NCBI RefSeq assembly: GCF_030127145.1
Contig: NZ_CP126158.1
Span: 1,612,001-1,676,000, forward strand
Direction of reading: 5' to 3'
DNA length: 64,000 nt
Origin: Halobaculum halobium
GTDB lineage: Archaea; Halobacteriota; Halobacteria; Halobacteriales; Haloferacaceae
Each line of letters begins with the position of its first letter. The stretch's first letter is position 1. The notes below the pieces were generated by a model. The model saw nothing but the letters and a program-made list of their open reading frames with translations. It was not told where the DNA came from and ran no database searches. Positions 15,814 through 40,821 of this stretch are shown here, piece after piece. The position numbers and the translations under genes are program-made.

Positions 15814-15999
15814 TCAGTCGTCGCTCGGAACCTCGGGGTCACTGAGGGAGGCGTCGGGAGCGAACACGACGCCCGGATCGAGGTCGTCGAGCGGTTCGCC
15901 CGCGCGAACCCGGTCGGGCCAGTCGTGGTTTGCCAGCGCGCCGGCCCCCAACGTGACCACCAGGGGTCGGTCGGTAGGCTCCGTCTGACGGCCGATCAC
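15814..15999 (-). CDS. Small acidic protein translationally coupled to dp1
   Basis: A 61-residue frame starting at GTG 15999 inside the last codons of dp1; start and stop overlap as GTGA, the pattern used throughout this genome for coupled genes. The product has no cysteines or membrane segment; it has a hydrophobic start (PLVVTLGAGALANHDW) and an acidic, Asp/Pro-rich end. I recognise no family. The tight overlap and haloarchaeal composition support a real gene, but its short length leaves doubt. Confidence 0.5.
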   Translation of the reverse strand: MIGRQTEPTDRPLVVTLGAGALANHDWPDRVRAGEPLDDLDPGVVFAPDASLSDPEVPSDD

Positions 16000-17588
16000 A
16001 CGAACTTCCGGACAGTCATGTCGAGCGTATCGAGATCGAGGATCGGCGCGTGAGCGACGTCAGGGTCGATGTTGACGGACTTCTGGAAGTCGGTCTGGGC
16101 CTGCCAGCAGCCGGAGTTGACCGCGAGGACGTTGTGGTACTTCCCCCATCCGAGCTTGTGGACGTGGCCGGTGTGGAACACGTCCGGCACCTCGTCGATA
16201 ACGAGGTAGTCGCGCTCCTCGGGGGCCACGCGGGTCTTGCCGCCGAACTGCGGAGCGACGTGGCGCTTCTTGAGAAGCTGGTACATCGCCTTGTGCGGAT
16301 CGTCGTAGCTGGCCTTCTCCTCGGGTAACTCCGCGATAACCTCGTCCAGCGAGACGCCGTGATACATCAGGATCGAGACGCCCTCGACGTCGACCATCGC
16401 GGGGTTGGACACGATCTGTGGGTCGTGCGCGCTCATGATCTCTCGAAGCTCCTCGTCGAACCCCGGCTGCGGCTCGGCGAGTCGAACCGCGTCGTGGTTT
16501 CCGGGGATCATCACGATCTCCATGTCACCGGGCACCTCCTTCAGGTGCTCCGAGAACGTCTCGTACTGGTCGTAGATGTCGATGATGTCGAGTTCCTCGT
16601 CTTGGTTCGGGTAGACCCCCACGCCTTCGACCATGTCGCCCGCGATGAGGAGGTACTCGACCGATTCGGCGTCCTCGGTGTGGAGCCAGTCGGCGAAGCG
16701 CGACCACGCGTCCGCGAGAAACTCCTGAGACCCGACGTGCACGTCCGAGATCAGCGCCGCCTGGACGTGACGGTCGGCGGTGCTCGGCCGGTAAGTGCGC
16801 GGAACGTCGGGGAAGTGGATCGCGTCGACGAAGACGATCCCCGCGTCGTCGGCGAGCGTTCCGGACACGGCGATGCACTCGTCCATGAGGAGCTCGTCGA
16901 CCAGGTCCGCGATGTCCCGGTCTTTCATCACCAGACACGGGAACGTGCCGGTGGTGTCCTCGAGTTCGATGAGCCAGTGGCCCGACGCGGTCGACCGGAT
17001 GTCGTTGACCAGGCCGATCATCTCCACGTCGGCGCCGCCGCCCATCGCTTCGATCGAGTCTGCGGGCCGGTGGTTGACGCGCCCCCGGAGCTGTCCGGAG
17101 AGCCGTTCGTACCGGTCGCGGAACACGCCGACGAACTCGTCGTACGCGCCCGTCCCGGTCGACTCCCCGGTCATATCGTTCGCGACGACGGGCTGCTGTG
17201 GGGACCGATCGCCGGCCGGATACCCCCCCGTTTCGTCTGGAACAGCGCCGGCGTCCTGTTTGGATTTCCGCCCGGCCGTTCCAGTCGAAACAGAGGGGTT
17301 TGACGGCGGAGCGTCGTTCGTCGACGGCGGCGATCCCGAATTCGCCGACGCAGCGGGCGGGGTCGCGTCCGCGACCTGTTCGGGGTCCGGAAGGGGATCG
17401 CTTTCGACCGCCTCGCGGACGTGGTCGGCGGTGAGAACGAGCGCGTCCTCCGGCGCAGTTTCGATGGCGGCTTCGAGTGCGAGATCCGGCGTCGCCGATT
17501 CGGCGATGAGGGTGACGGCCTCCCGTTCGGCGTTGTACCCGCGGCGGGCGAGCGCCTGTACGATTCGAGAGGACGTCTCCAGCGGCAC
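15996..17588 (-). CDS. polB: DNA polymerase D small subunit DP1
   Basis: DP1 is the 3'-5' proofreading exonuclease subunit of the archaeal replicative polymerase PolD. The 530-residue product has an N-terminal helical domain (MPLETSSRIVQALARRGYNAEREA), a Ser/Pro/Thr-rich linker at about 70-145, an OB fold (about 185-255), and a calcineurin-like phosphoesterase domain with DVHVGS near 282, GDMVEGVG, PGNHD and GHVHK. I chose the GTG at 17588 because family proteins begin MPLET; an upstream TTG at 17615 would add nine residues. The linker DNA contains two origin-recognition-box-like sequences. It lies beside the signal peptidase and orc1, the usual haloarchaeal oriC1 neighbourhood. Confidence 0.95.
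   Translation of the reverse strand: MPLETSSRIVQALARRGYNAEREAVTLIAESATPDLALEAAIETAPEDALVLTADHVREAVESDPLPDPEQVADATPPAASANSGSPPSTNDAPPSNPSVSTGTAGRKSKQDAGAVPDETGGYPAGDRSPQQPVVANDMTGESTGTGAYDEFVGVFRDRYERLSGQLRGRVNHRPADSIEAMGGGADVEMIGLVNDIRSTASGHWLIELEDTTGTFPCLVMKDRDIADLVDELLMDECIAVSGTLADDAGIVFVDAIHFPDVPRTYRPSTADRHVQAALISDVHVGSQEFLADAWSRFADWLHTEDAESVEYLLIAGDMVEGVGVYPNQDEELDIIDIYDQYETFSEHLKEVPGDMEIVMIPGNHDAVRLAEPQPGFDEELREIMSAHDPQIVSNPAMVDVEGVSILMYHGVSLDEVIAELPEEKASYDDPHKAMYQLLKKRHVAPQFGGKTRVAPEERDYLVIDEVPDVFHTGHVHKLGWGKYHNVLAVNSGCWQAQTDFQKSVNIDPDVAHAPILDLDTLDMTVRKFV
17220..17244 (-). promoter_or_regulatory. Origin-recognition-box-like site inside dp1 (leftward)
   Basis: On the minus strand the site reads TTCCAGACGAAAC followed by a seven-G run and TAT. 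It matches the ORB layout seen at 20921 and 21109 (TTCCA, three bases, GAAAC, purines, G-run). Its G-run points away from the partner site at 17278. Confidence 0.6.
17278..17302 (+). promoter_or_regulatory. Origin-recognition-box-like site inside dp1 (rightward)
   Basis: GTTCCAGTCGAAACAGAGGG continues with GTTTG, and is almost identical to ORBs at the origin. It forms an inverted pair with the 17220 site across 33 bases, in the part of dp1 that encodes the poorly conserved linker. Confidence 0.62.
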
Positions 17589-17711
17589 GCCCAGTGGTCC
17601 GCCTGCGGCAGTCAAAAGGATAGCGACTGGAAAGAGCCGTCGACCCGACGCGATGCCGACGGAGAGACGGTAGCAGAAGGTTCAACACCGGTCGTCGGGT
17701 TCAGACGAGTA

Positions 17712-18509
17712 ATGAGCGACGACGGTCGGCAGCCCGACGACCCGCTGTCACGGTTCCTCCACGGTGAGACGGGCGCGTTGGTGTTCGTCCGCGAAGTACT
17801 CACGTCGGTACTTGCAGTCGCACTGGTCGGGCTCCTGTTGTTCGCCGTTTCCGGCGTCTGGCCCCCGATGGTCGCCGTCGAGTCGGGGAGCATGGAGCCA
17901 CACATGGAGCGCGGCGACCTGGTGTTCATCACGGAACCCGACCGCTTCACCCCCGAGTTTGCGCACGGCGACACGGGAATCGTCACCTACGAGACTGGCG
18001 CGGCGGAGGCGTACACCACCTTCGGCGAACCAGGGTCCGTGATCGTGTACCATCCACCGGGGTCGGGTGGTTCCCCCATCATACATCGCGCGCGATTCCA
18101 CGTCCAGGAGGGCGAGAACTGGGTGGATCGGGCGAATCCCGACTACCTCCCGGCGACCTCGTGCGAGGGCGTTCCCGCCTGTCCCGCACCGTACGACGGA
18201 TTCATCACGAAGGGTGACGCGAACGCCGAGTACGACCAAGTTAGCGGGATCGCTCCCGTCGTGAAATCCGAGTGGGTCCACGGCGTCGCGCGCGTTCGGG
18301 TCCCGTATCTCGGGTACGTTCGTCTCGTCTTCTCGGAGGCCGTACTAGTCCAGATAGACGGAGGGGCCGATGGCGTGGTACCCGCCGTCGGTGGCGAACG
18401 CGTCTCCGTGACCGGAAGCGAGCGGACGACGACCACCGGAGTAGTCGGATCCGCGTCGCCGACACTTGCTACTGGTTCGGCCCACGGGACGCCGACGGCC
18501 ACCGCCTGA
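17712..18509 (+). CDS. Type I signal peptidase (SipW/Sec11-like)
   Basis: A 265-residue membrane-bound signal peptidase that removes Sec signal peptides on the outer face. One N-terminal transmembrane helix (about 28-48) is followed by the catalytic SGSMEP motif with Ser60. As in archaeal and eukaryotic ER enzymes, the general base is histidine, SPIIHRARF with His125, not lysine. Box E-like GFITKGDANAEYDQ follows. A second hydrophobic segment lies near 205-220, and the tail is a Thr/Ser-rich region likely to be exposed or glycosylated. The ATG at 17712 sits 29 bases after a TATA-like GGTTCAAC. It is divergent from dp1 and convergent with orc1. Confidence 0.92.
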   Translation: MSDDGRQPDDPLSRFLHGETGALVFVREVLTSVLAVALVGLLLFAVSGVWPPMVAVESGSMEPHMERGDLVFITEPDRFTPEFAHGDTGIVTYETGAAEAYTTFGEPGSVIVYHPPGSGGSPIIHRARFHVQEGENWVDRANPDYLPATSCEGVPACPAPYDGFITKGDANAEYDQVSGIAPVVKSEWVHGVARVRVPYLGYVRLVFSEAVLVQIDGGADGVVPAVGGERVSVTGSERTTTTGVVGSASPTLATGSAHGTPTATA

Positions 18510-18850: not shown

Positions 18851-20527
18851 TCAGTTGTCGAACCGGGCCTGGACGAACGGCTGGACGTCCTCGATGTCGC
18901 CGAGCCGGGAGTCAGACAGGAGGACGGCCTCCGTTTCGTCGATCGGGACCGACAAGGAGATCTCCTTCGTGCGCCCGTACCGACCCTTCGAGACGACGAC
19001 GGCGTTGACGATGCCGAGCATGTCCAGTTCGGAGATGAGATCGGTCACCCGTCGCTGAGTGAGCACGTCGGCGTCGATCTCCTCACAGAGGCGCTTGTAG
19101 ATGTTGAACACCTCCCCGGTGTTGACGTTGTGGACGCCGTTCTGTTCGAGAAGGATGATCGAAAACAGGACGATCTTGCTTTGCGTCGGGAGGGTCCGCA
19201 CGACCTCGACGACCCGGTCGAGTTCGATCTTGTCTTGTGCCTGTCTGACGTGCGCCTCCTCGACGAGGTCGGCTTGCGAGCGCTCGGCGAGTTCACCCGC
19301 GGTCCGGAGGAGATCGAGTGCGCGGCGAGCGTCGCCGTGTTCCTGCGCGGCGAAAGCGGCACACAGCGGGATCACGTCTTCGGTGAGCGCGTCGCCCTTG
19401 AACGCGATGTCCGAGCGGTGCTGGAGGATGTCGCGCAGCTGGTTGGCGTCGTACGGCGGGAAGACGATCTCCTCTTCGCCGAGGCTCGACTTGACGCGGG
19501 GGTCGAGGAAGTCGGTGAACTTCAGGTCGTTCGAGATCCCCATGATGGAGATCCGCGAGTTCTCGAGTTCGGAGTTCATCCGCGAGAGGTTGTACAGCGT
19601 GTCGTCCCCGGATTTCTCGACGAGCTTGTCGATCTCGTCGAGCATGATCACGACGACGCGCTCGTGATAGTCGACGGCGTCGAAGAACGTCGAGTAGACG
19701 CGGTCCGTCGGCCACCCGGTCATCGGCACTTCCTCCATCTCCTCGCGGTCCGACTCGCGGTCGGCGATGCGCTCGTCGACATCCGCGACGGCACCGAACT
19801 CTGTCCCGTCGAGTGCGCTGTCGTCGTCGGCAGCCGTAGATCGGAGATCGCGGAGTTCGTCGAGTCGGTCGCCGATGACTCGCTTGTTCTTCTCAATGAA
19901 CTTGTTCGCGAGCTGTGCGAGCACCCGGTACTGGGTGTCGGTCACTTCGCAGTTGATGTACTCGACCTCGCAGGGAACATCGTACTTCTGGCTGGTCGAC
20001 TCCAGTTCCTGGGAGACGAACTTCGCCGAGGCGGTCTTTCCGGTTCCGGTCTTCCCGTAAATGAGAATATTCGACGGCGTTTCACCTCGCAACGCGGACA
20101 CGAGGATCGTCGCCATCTTGTTGATCTGGTCTTTCCGGTGGGGGAGCTCGTGAGGGGTGTACGAGGGACGCAGCACCTCCTTGTTCTCGAAGATGGGTTC
20201 GCCCGAAAGGAGATCATCGAACAACCCGGTGCTTGCCTCGTCGTCCTCGTCCGCGAGCACCTCGTCGACATCGAGGTCGACGTCGGTCCGCGACCGCGAC
20301 CCGGAGCCGAAGTCGAATTCGGATCCGGAGGGCTCACCGTTCGCTTCGGCGCCGTCCCGTCTCGGGTCGGCGCTGTCGCTGTCTGGGCCCGACGACCGCT
20401 CTGCATCCGACGACTGTCCGTCGCTTCGGGTGGAGTCGTCGGTGCTGTCCGAGCTCGTCGCCGCGCCCGACCGGTCGTCGGTTCCGCCGTCGTTCGAATC
20501 GTGTCCCGGCTCGTCGTCCCGTGTCAT
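18851..20527 (-). CDS. orc1: Orc1/Cdc6 replication initiator of the oriC1 type
   Basis: A 558-residue AAA+ initiator that binds ORBs, opens the origin and loads MCM. Residues 1-100 are an acidic Ser/Asp-rich extension. The ATPase core starts near LRPSYTPHELPHR, with Walker A GKTGTGKT at 158-165, Walker B MLDEIDKL, sensor 1 GISND and a sensor 2/helical lid. The C-terminal winged helix includes LTQRRVTDLISELDMLGIV. Sequence blocks match the haloarchaeal initiator that sits at the primary origin. I chose ATG 20527 (MTRDDEPGHD); an in-frame ATG at 20566 or TTG at 20653 would run through ORB1. An ORB lies 11-34 bases before the start, so Orc1 may repress its own gene. Confidence 0.96.
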   Translation of the reverse strand: MTRDDEPGHDSNDGGTDDRSGAATSSDSTDDSTRSDGQSSDAERSSGPDSDSADPRRDGAEANGEPSGSEFDFGSGSRSRTDVDLDVDEVLADEDDEASTGLFDDLLSGEPIFENKEVLRPSYTPHELPHRKDQINKMATILVSALRGETPSNILIYGKTGTGKTASAKFVSQELESTSQKYDVPCEVEYINCEVTDTQYRVLAQLANKFIEKNKRVIGDRLDELRDLRSTAADDDSALDGTEFGAVADVDERIADRESDREEMEEVPMTGWPTDRVYSTFFDAVDYHERVVVIMLDEIDKLVEKSGDDTLYNLSRMNSELENSRISIMGISNDLKFTDFLDPRVKSSLGEEEIVFPPYDANQLRDILQHRSDIAFKGDALTEDVIPLCAAFAAQEHGDARRALDLLRTAGELAERSQADLVEEAHVRQAQDKIELDRVVEVVRTLPTQSKIVLFSIILLEQNGVHNVNTGEVFNIYKRLCEEIDADVLTQRRVTDLISELDMLGIVNAVVVSKGRYGRTKEISLSVPIDETEAVLLSDSRLGDIEDVQPFVQARFDN

Positions 20528-20537
20528 CCGTTCGTTG

Positions 20538-20561
20538 TACCCCCTTGTTTCGACTGGAACT
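20538..20561 (-). promoter_or_regulatory. Origin recognition box 1, at the orc1 start
   Basis: Minus strand GTTCCAGTCGAAACAAGGGG, continuing GTAC. It lies between the likely orc1 start codon and its upstream AT-rich promoter region (GTTTTTTAAC near 20675), so binding could both mark the origin and repress orc1. Confidence 0.75.
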
Positions 20562-20920: not shown

Positions 20921-20949
20921 CCCCCCACCCCTTCGTTTCCGGTGGAGAC
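20921..20949 (-). promoter_or_regulatory. Origin recognition box 2, left of the unwinding element
   Basis: Minus strand TCTCCACCGGAAACGAAGGG followed by GTGGGGGG. Extended G-string ORBs of this kind flank the unwinding element of haloarchaeal oriC1. Confidence 0.8.
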
Positions 20950-20989
20950 GGAGACTGACGGGGTGGGGGACGGGTGCCGCTAGACTGCA

Positions 20990-21055
20990 GCATCTTTATT
21001 ACACCATAGGTTAAACAATATCCGCACGACTAGCAGATATATTTTATTTAGGTTG
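20990..21055. other. AT-rich DNA unwinding element
   Basis: The stretch contains CTTTATTACACC, TTAAACAATAT and AGATATATTTTATTTAGG, about two-thirds A+T, unlike anything else in the window. It sits between ORB2 and ORB3, where melting is expected. Confidence 0.8.
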
Positions 21056-21108
21056 TGGTGAGGTCTAGATAACTGCTCCGAGCTTCCCCCTCCACCCGAG
21101 TTCGGCCG

Positions 21109-21137
21109 GTTCCACCCGAAACAGAGGGGTGGGGGTG
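21109..21137 (+). promoter_or_regulatory. Origin recognition box 3, right of the unwinding element
   Basis: Plus strand GTTCCACCCGAAACAGAGGG followed by GTGGGGGTG, inverted relative to ORB2 and sharing its long G-string. A weaker TCCACCCGAG half-site lies just before it at 21091. Confidence 0.8.
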
Positions 21138-40798: not shown

Positions 40799-40821
40799 TC
40801 TCCAGTGGAAACGAGGGGGTG
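40799..40821 (+). promoter_or_regulatory. Isolated origin-recognition-box-like site
   Basis: TCTCCAGTGGAAACGAGGGG followed by GTG matches the haloarchaeal ORB pattern as closely as those at the origin. It lies 63 bases after the tRNA-Gln gene and 94 bases before the CBS-protein gene, with no orc gene or AT-rich element nearby. Confidence 0.55.

Follow-up and report, generated by a model that had tools for sequence, protein, structure and literature searches.

An inverted ORB pair within the dp1 coding sequence and an origin-centred zone of ORBs in Halobacteriales

The window analysed here (the whole stretch of 64,000 nucleotides from Halobaculum halobium) is the oriC1 region of a haloarchaeon, with the gene order dp1, signal peptidase, orc1, oriC1 and Era-like GTPase. 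The dp1 gene (15996..17588, minus strand) encodes the small (exonuclease) subunit of DNA polymerase D (NCBIfam NF003116, E 3.7e-291, where the product is named DNA polymerase II small subunit), its nearest named relative being that of Halobaculum saliterrae with 88% protein identity. The longest open reading frame opens earlier, at 17615; we place the start at the GTG at 17588 because 80 of 80 homologues have GTG at this position. An archaeal signal peptidase gene (17712-18509, plus strand) lies between dp1 and orc1/cdc6-1 (18851..20527, minus strand; NCBIfam NF001625, E 2.5e-196), the product of which is the presumed binder of the ORBs. Solved DP1 structures can be aligned only from profile position 149 onward. 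The ORB pair that concerns us is encoded ahead of this folded part, in the linker of DP1, which is indeed as poorly conserved as originally suggested.

Both ORBs in dp1 match TTCCANNSGAAACNNNGGGG with zero mismatches. The left one, TTCCAGACGAAACGGGGGGG (17223..17242, minus strand), encodes the VPDETGG codons of DP1 and has no second G-run past its core; the right one, TTCCAGTCGAAACAGAGGGG (17279..17298, plus strand), has the PSVSTG codons of DP1 on its other strand. They stand back to back with their G-runs pointing outward, as the original prediction described them, 56 nt apart from start to start. The gap between the TTCCA ends (17243..17278) is 36 bp, not 33 bases as first claimed, and this spacer is of fixed length but encodes variable amino acids. 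The two sites carry the oriC1-type core TTCCANNNGAAACNNNGGGG with its G-string, and this core is kept across genera. A chance origin was rejected on the match counts: the window contains 7 ORB matches at up to 2 mismatches where dinucleotide shuffles lead one to expect 0.2, and the 3.46-Mb genome contains 9 exact matches to CCANNNGAAACNNNGGGG and 0 to a backwards-pattern control.

At oriC1 itself, a left ORB (20928..20947, minus strand; 1 mismatch to the TTCCA form) and a right ORB (21110..21129, plus strand), each with the extended (halo) G-string, enclose a region (20948..21109) with an AT-rich unwinding element at about 20990-21055, and their starts are 182 bp apart. A third, core-only ORB (20540..20559, minus strand) precedes the orc1 ATG by 13-32 nt; a consensus ORB upstream of orc1 has a counterpart in most named loci and is a candidate for autoregulation of orc1. 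The distance of 3.2 kb that had been given between the dp1 pair and the origin is correct for this ORB just upstream of orc1 but not for the oriC1 pair, which is 3.6-3.8 kb away. Similarly, the geometry of the dp1 pair was said to be that of oriC1, which is true of its orientation only. Archaeal oriC1 pairs (Sulfolobus ORB2/ORB3 and haloarchaeal oriC1) have the same ORB core in the same inverted orientation, but they flank an AT-rich element, have a variable spacing of about 180-350 nt and carry the halo G-string, whereas the dp1 pair has neither the AT-rich element nor the halo G-string and keeps to a fixed 56 nt.

These differences hold across genomes and separate two classes of ORB. The halo G-string, a second G-run after the core, is present in 167 of 174 oriC1 ORBs versus 8 of 216 dp1 ORBs; in the sample genomes GGGGTGGGGG occurs only at ORBs flanking oriC1, and every dispersed ORB that we inspected there, like the ORB upstream of orc1, is core-only. 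In Haloarcula hispanica, an oriC1 plasmid lost its activity when the extended G-string on either side was mutated (PMC3936714). The spacer of the dp1 pair is not AT-rich (mean GC 0.66 in 108 pairs), which bears out the original prediction, so that two features of an origin, the extended G-string and an AT-rich unwinding element between the ORBs, are absent from dp1. Only a few other inverted ORB pairs of similar spacing were found near the origin. Four genomes of one family have a convergent pair near orc1, with G-runs inward and 50-51 nt apart. A recurrent sequence with 1 mismatch, TTCCA(G/C)GCGAAACA(G/C)CGGGC, is present once in each of several genomes and probably lies inside a conserved gene.

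In a sample spread over the order, and at up to 2 mismatches, the inverted pair is found in dp1 of 32 of 55 genera and 11 of 16 families, at 56 nt from start to start and rarely at 53 or 68; a further 14 genera have a single dp1 ORB and 9 have none, and the pair must therefore be dispensable. ORB-like matches are strongly partitioned within the gene, 106 falling in 50 kb of dp1 linker and 3 in the 80.5 kb of remaining dp1 body. When 150 dp1 loci were scored with a matrix made from oriC1 ORBs only, the matches again fell in the linker, where 68 pairs had a spacing of exactly 56 nt, 5 a spacing of 53 and 2 a spacing of 68. The spacing is unchanged while the linker on the two sides of the pair ranges from 43 to 139 and from 14 to 78 residues (24 measurable genes). 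Single ORBs also occur elsewhere in the dp1 linker.

The bases of the dp1 ORBs are selected as DNA and not as protein. In 52 dp1 genes picked by their amino-acid pattern (a protein regular expression) alone, the ORB codons are GTT in 44 of 44 cases (5.2% in the gene body), ACT in 41/41 (4.8%), CCA in 51/52 (4.9%), GGA in 38/38 (5.4%) and GAA in 52/52 (26.5%), counts that are not independent events, the sampled genomes sharing kinship. Where the valine is replaced by Ala, Thr or Ile, or the threonine by Ala, Asp, Pro, Gly or Ser, the third base is T in every case. Among 449 dp1 codon columns ranked by bias beyond usage, ORB codons take ranks 1, 2, 3, 5, 8 and 10, rank 4 being the GTG start codon. 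Synonymous sites outside the ORBs vary across the same genera, and it is because the ORB wobble bases are fixed while these vary that we conclude that selection acts on DNA. The alignment of linker DNA proposed along with the original prediction thus gave a clearly positive answer: the ORB bases persist while the amino acids vary. It is most improbable, by contrast, that we are looking at a conserved DP1 peptide motif (PSVSTG ... PVETEG) whose codons resemble ORBs by accident. The linker does look conserved there at the amino-acid level; yet codons that the rest of the gene seldom uses have an unvarying wobble base here, which is kept when the residue changes, lone ORBs turn up at further points along the linker, and the spacer is fixed in length but not in residues. 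A protein motif was rejected on the codon test, the pattern being the opposite of conserved residues with free synonymous sites.

Outside the order, we compared 20 genomes drawn from further families of the phylum: dp1 lacks the ORB pair in every one, even though in 8 of them orc1 is no more than about 5 kb from dp1 and oriC1 has its ORBs. With the pair in 0 of 20 outgroup genomes, an ancient archaeal inheritance was rejected, and from the sequences compared the pair arose in, or early in, the Halobacteriales. Two outgroup genomes of one family share one ORB-like site, with 2 mismatches, whose position in the dp1 body is the same in both.

The original prediction also proposed that the pair might extend the Orc1 binding cluster, and here the data support a larger version of the claim. 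We listed exact consensus ORBs genome-wide in 26 genomes and computed statistics on the 21 chromosomes with a recognisable oriC1, leaving the oriC1 pair and the dp1 sites out of the count. Of the 69 other consensus ORBs, 65 are no more than 200 kb from oriC1, where a uniform spread would put 8.2, and 43 are no more than 50 kb from it, where a uniform spread would put 2.0; 16 are less than 3 kb from oriC1, beside orc1, and the remainder are still concentrated. The backwards-pattern control gave zero exact matches in 16 genomes. Consensus ORBs, nearly all of them, are thus confined to an origin-centred zone. In H. halobium, where oriC1 is at 1633.0 kb, zone ORBs are found at 1594.5, 1602.7, 1652.8 and 1818.1 kb; one of them is in the window (40800..40819, plus strand, core-only, 20 kb from oriC1), and those outside it are at 1594529, 1602740 and 1818093 and are all core-only.

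The dp1 ORBs belong to this zone even when dp1 has moved. They lie 3-156 kb from oriC1 in 20 chromosomes, dp1 being usually 3-5 kb away but 16-19 kb in two Haladaptatus, 26 kb in Halomicrococcus, about 80 kb in Halosegnis, 130 kb in Halorarius, and 156 kb in a genome whose oriC1 is itself far from orc1. All of the relocated dp1 genes (16-156 kb) keep at least one dp1 ORB and usually the whole pair. One family includes two genomes in which some 150 kb separate the oriC1 pair and its AT-rich element from orc1 and dp1; origin and initiator gene have come apart there.

What the pair does can be approached from its position and its sequence. Our preferred reading, held tentatively and at a little less than an even chance, is that the dp1 ORBs are Orc1-binding but non-initiating sites of the origin zone, which titrate Orc1. 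On this view the predicted Orc1 sites make use of wobble and free positions in the DP1 linker codons, and the pair belongs with the other core-only ORBs of the origin-centred zone. We infer that Orc1 binds them, that replication does not start there and that their effect is regulatory. Since the zone is within about 200 kb of oriC1 it would be copied soon after firing, and the number of its sites would rise twofold at a time when they and the new oriC1 copies are in competition for Orc1; free Orc1 would therefore be taken up and re-initiation restrained. The back-to-back pair at its fixed distance might fix the placement of two Orc1 molecules relative to each other and leave a stretch of DNA too short for the helicase to be loaded productively. 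In Sulfolobus, MCM is directed by inverted ORBs into the DNA that they enclose (PMC12141716), and 36 bp would be tight for two MCM hexamers. As befits a titration locus, the pair is outside the origin, has no unwinding element and is origin-proximal (early-replicating); its retention when dp1 is 16-156 kb from oriC1 likewise fits titration anywhere in early-replicating DNA. Sequestration of the initiator, one of the functions suggested at the outset, is the best supported of them, although the function itself is deduced. Any effect of the dp1 pair would be regulatory and may be small, given that two ORBs with the AT-rich region suffice as a minimal oriC1 of H. hispanica on plasmids (PMC3936714). 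Genera with fewer dp1 ORBs do not in general have more of the remaining core-only ORBs in the 10 kb around (Spearman -0.12, P 0.53); a general compensation between the two was looked for and not found, although Halorussus and Haloferax look compensatory. Titration alone does not account for the retention of the pair in dp1 with a single, exact spacing. Simple titration needs no fixed spacing, and a two-Orc1 complex or a role in organising the origin region may for this reason be involved as well.

Such a role could even be the main one, although we consider this unlikely: Orc1 bound at many sites, about 200 kb to either side, would mark and fold the origin region or help to partition it, the dp1 pair being its most conserved site, with a function closer to that of ParB-parS than to the mere removal of free Orc1. 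The sites are spread over a broad zone and not gathered in one cluster, membership of the zone survives rearrangement, and the fixed spacing suggests a defined nucleoprotein complex; besides, deletion of cdc6A from H. hispanica is very difficult and that of oriC1 is not, which the authors of that study read as a sign of a role beyond oriC1 (PMC3936714). The present evidence, however, fits organising and titrating alike, and we found no segregation role for Orc1 in haloarchaea in the literature. Haloarchaeal chromosomes, moreover, are polyploid, which counts against an organiser of this kind.

Control of dp1 itself, the remaining suggestion of the original prediction, seems less probable again. 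Orc1 bound about 290-370 nt inside dp1 would hinder transcription, and the small subunit of polymerase D would then track the level of initiator. The pair does travel with dp1 (to 130 kb in Halorarius, about 80 kb in Halosegnis and 16-19 kb in Haladaptatus) and orc1 has its own ORB just upstream of its start; but the dp1 pair is deep in the coding sequence and not at a promoter, it stands at very different distances from the start (43-139 aa from a conserved N-terminal motif), and the zone of other ORBs, none of them in dp1, would be left unexplained. A shade less probable still is an auxiliary origin element, either a site of accessory or dormant initiation or one that enhances oriC1 by delivering Orc1 or MCM to it. 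Such an element would account for the oriC1-like inverted orientation with G-runs outward and for the usual distance of 3-5 kb from oriC1, but not for a spacer with a GC of 0.66 and no AT-rich element, nor for a pair that is kept at 16-156 kb from oriC1; the extended G-string, which H. hispanica oriC1 needs (PMC3936714), is in only 8/216 dp1 ORBs.

The proposed sites have parallels elsewhere. Escherichia coli datA is a high-affinity initiator-binding locus that has no origin activity and acts in negative regulation; it differs in being one locus that works through IHF-dependent DnaA-ATP hydrolysis, and we know of no datA-like cofactor for the dp1 pair. Closer to hand, H. hispanica oriC2D consists of 11 ORBs in a 722-bp intergenic region downstream of cdc6E and exerts negative control, probably through Cdc6E titration (PMC3936714). 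Like the dp1 pair as we read it, it supplies extra ORBs near a haloarchaeal origin, has no origin activity and is thought to titrate its cognate Orc1/Cdc6, but it is a dense, single intergenic cluster serving oriC2 and Cdc6E that is not in all haloarchaea, while the dp1 pair consists of two oriC1-type ORBs in a coding gene, conserved across most of the order. In Bacillus subtilis, removing six DnaA-box clusters led to early initiation (Okumura 2012, as described in PMC5295017). These oriC-proximal clusters resemble the zone in being redundant initiator sites near but outside the origin, and differ in that they are box clusters for bacterial DnaA, where haloarchaea have single sites for Orc1 and a fixed-spacing pair in a replication gene.

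In the literature that could be searched, neither ORBs within dp1 nor an origin-wide ORB zone are described. The published ORB searches that we read covered intergenic regions beside orc/cdc6 genes (PMC3528665), and the pair and the zone were missed because of this restriction, which is one of design. An origin-centred zone of initiator sites is therefore invisible to such searches. A simple rule, core ORB versus ORB with a halo G-string, separates presumed non-initiating from initiating Orc1 sites. To our knowledge, the archaeal safeguard against double origin firing is largely unknown. It is possible, though we would sooner doubt it than assume it, that Orc1 defines an origin domain of some hundred kb, made of core-only ORBs and anchored by the dp1 pair, which limits re-initiation and organises the origin region; if true, it would be, as far as we know, the first described in archaea. 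The dp1 pair itself is a precise, conserved and testable DNA element, both sites of which can be mutated synonymously with the protein untouched, and it is a case of a replication gene whose codon choice is overridden by DNA-level selection in most of an order.
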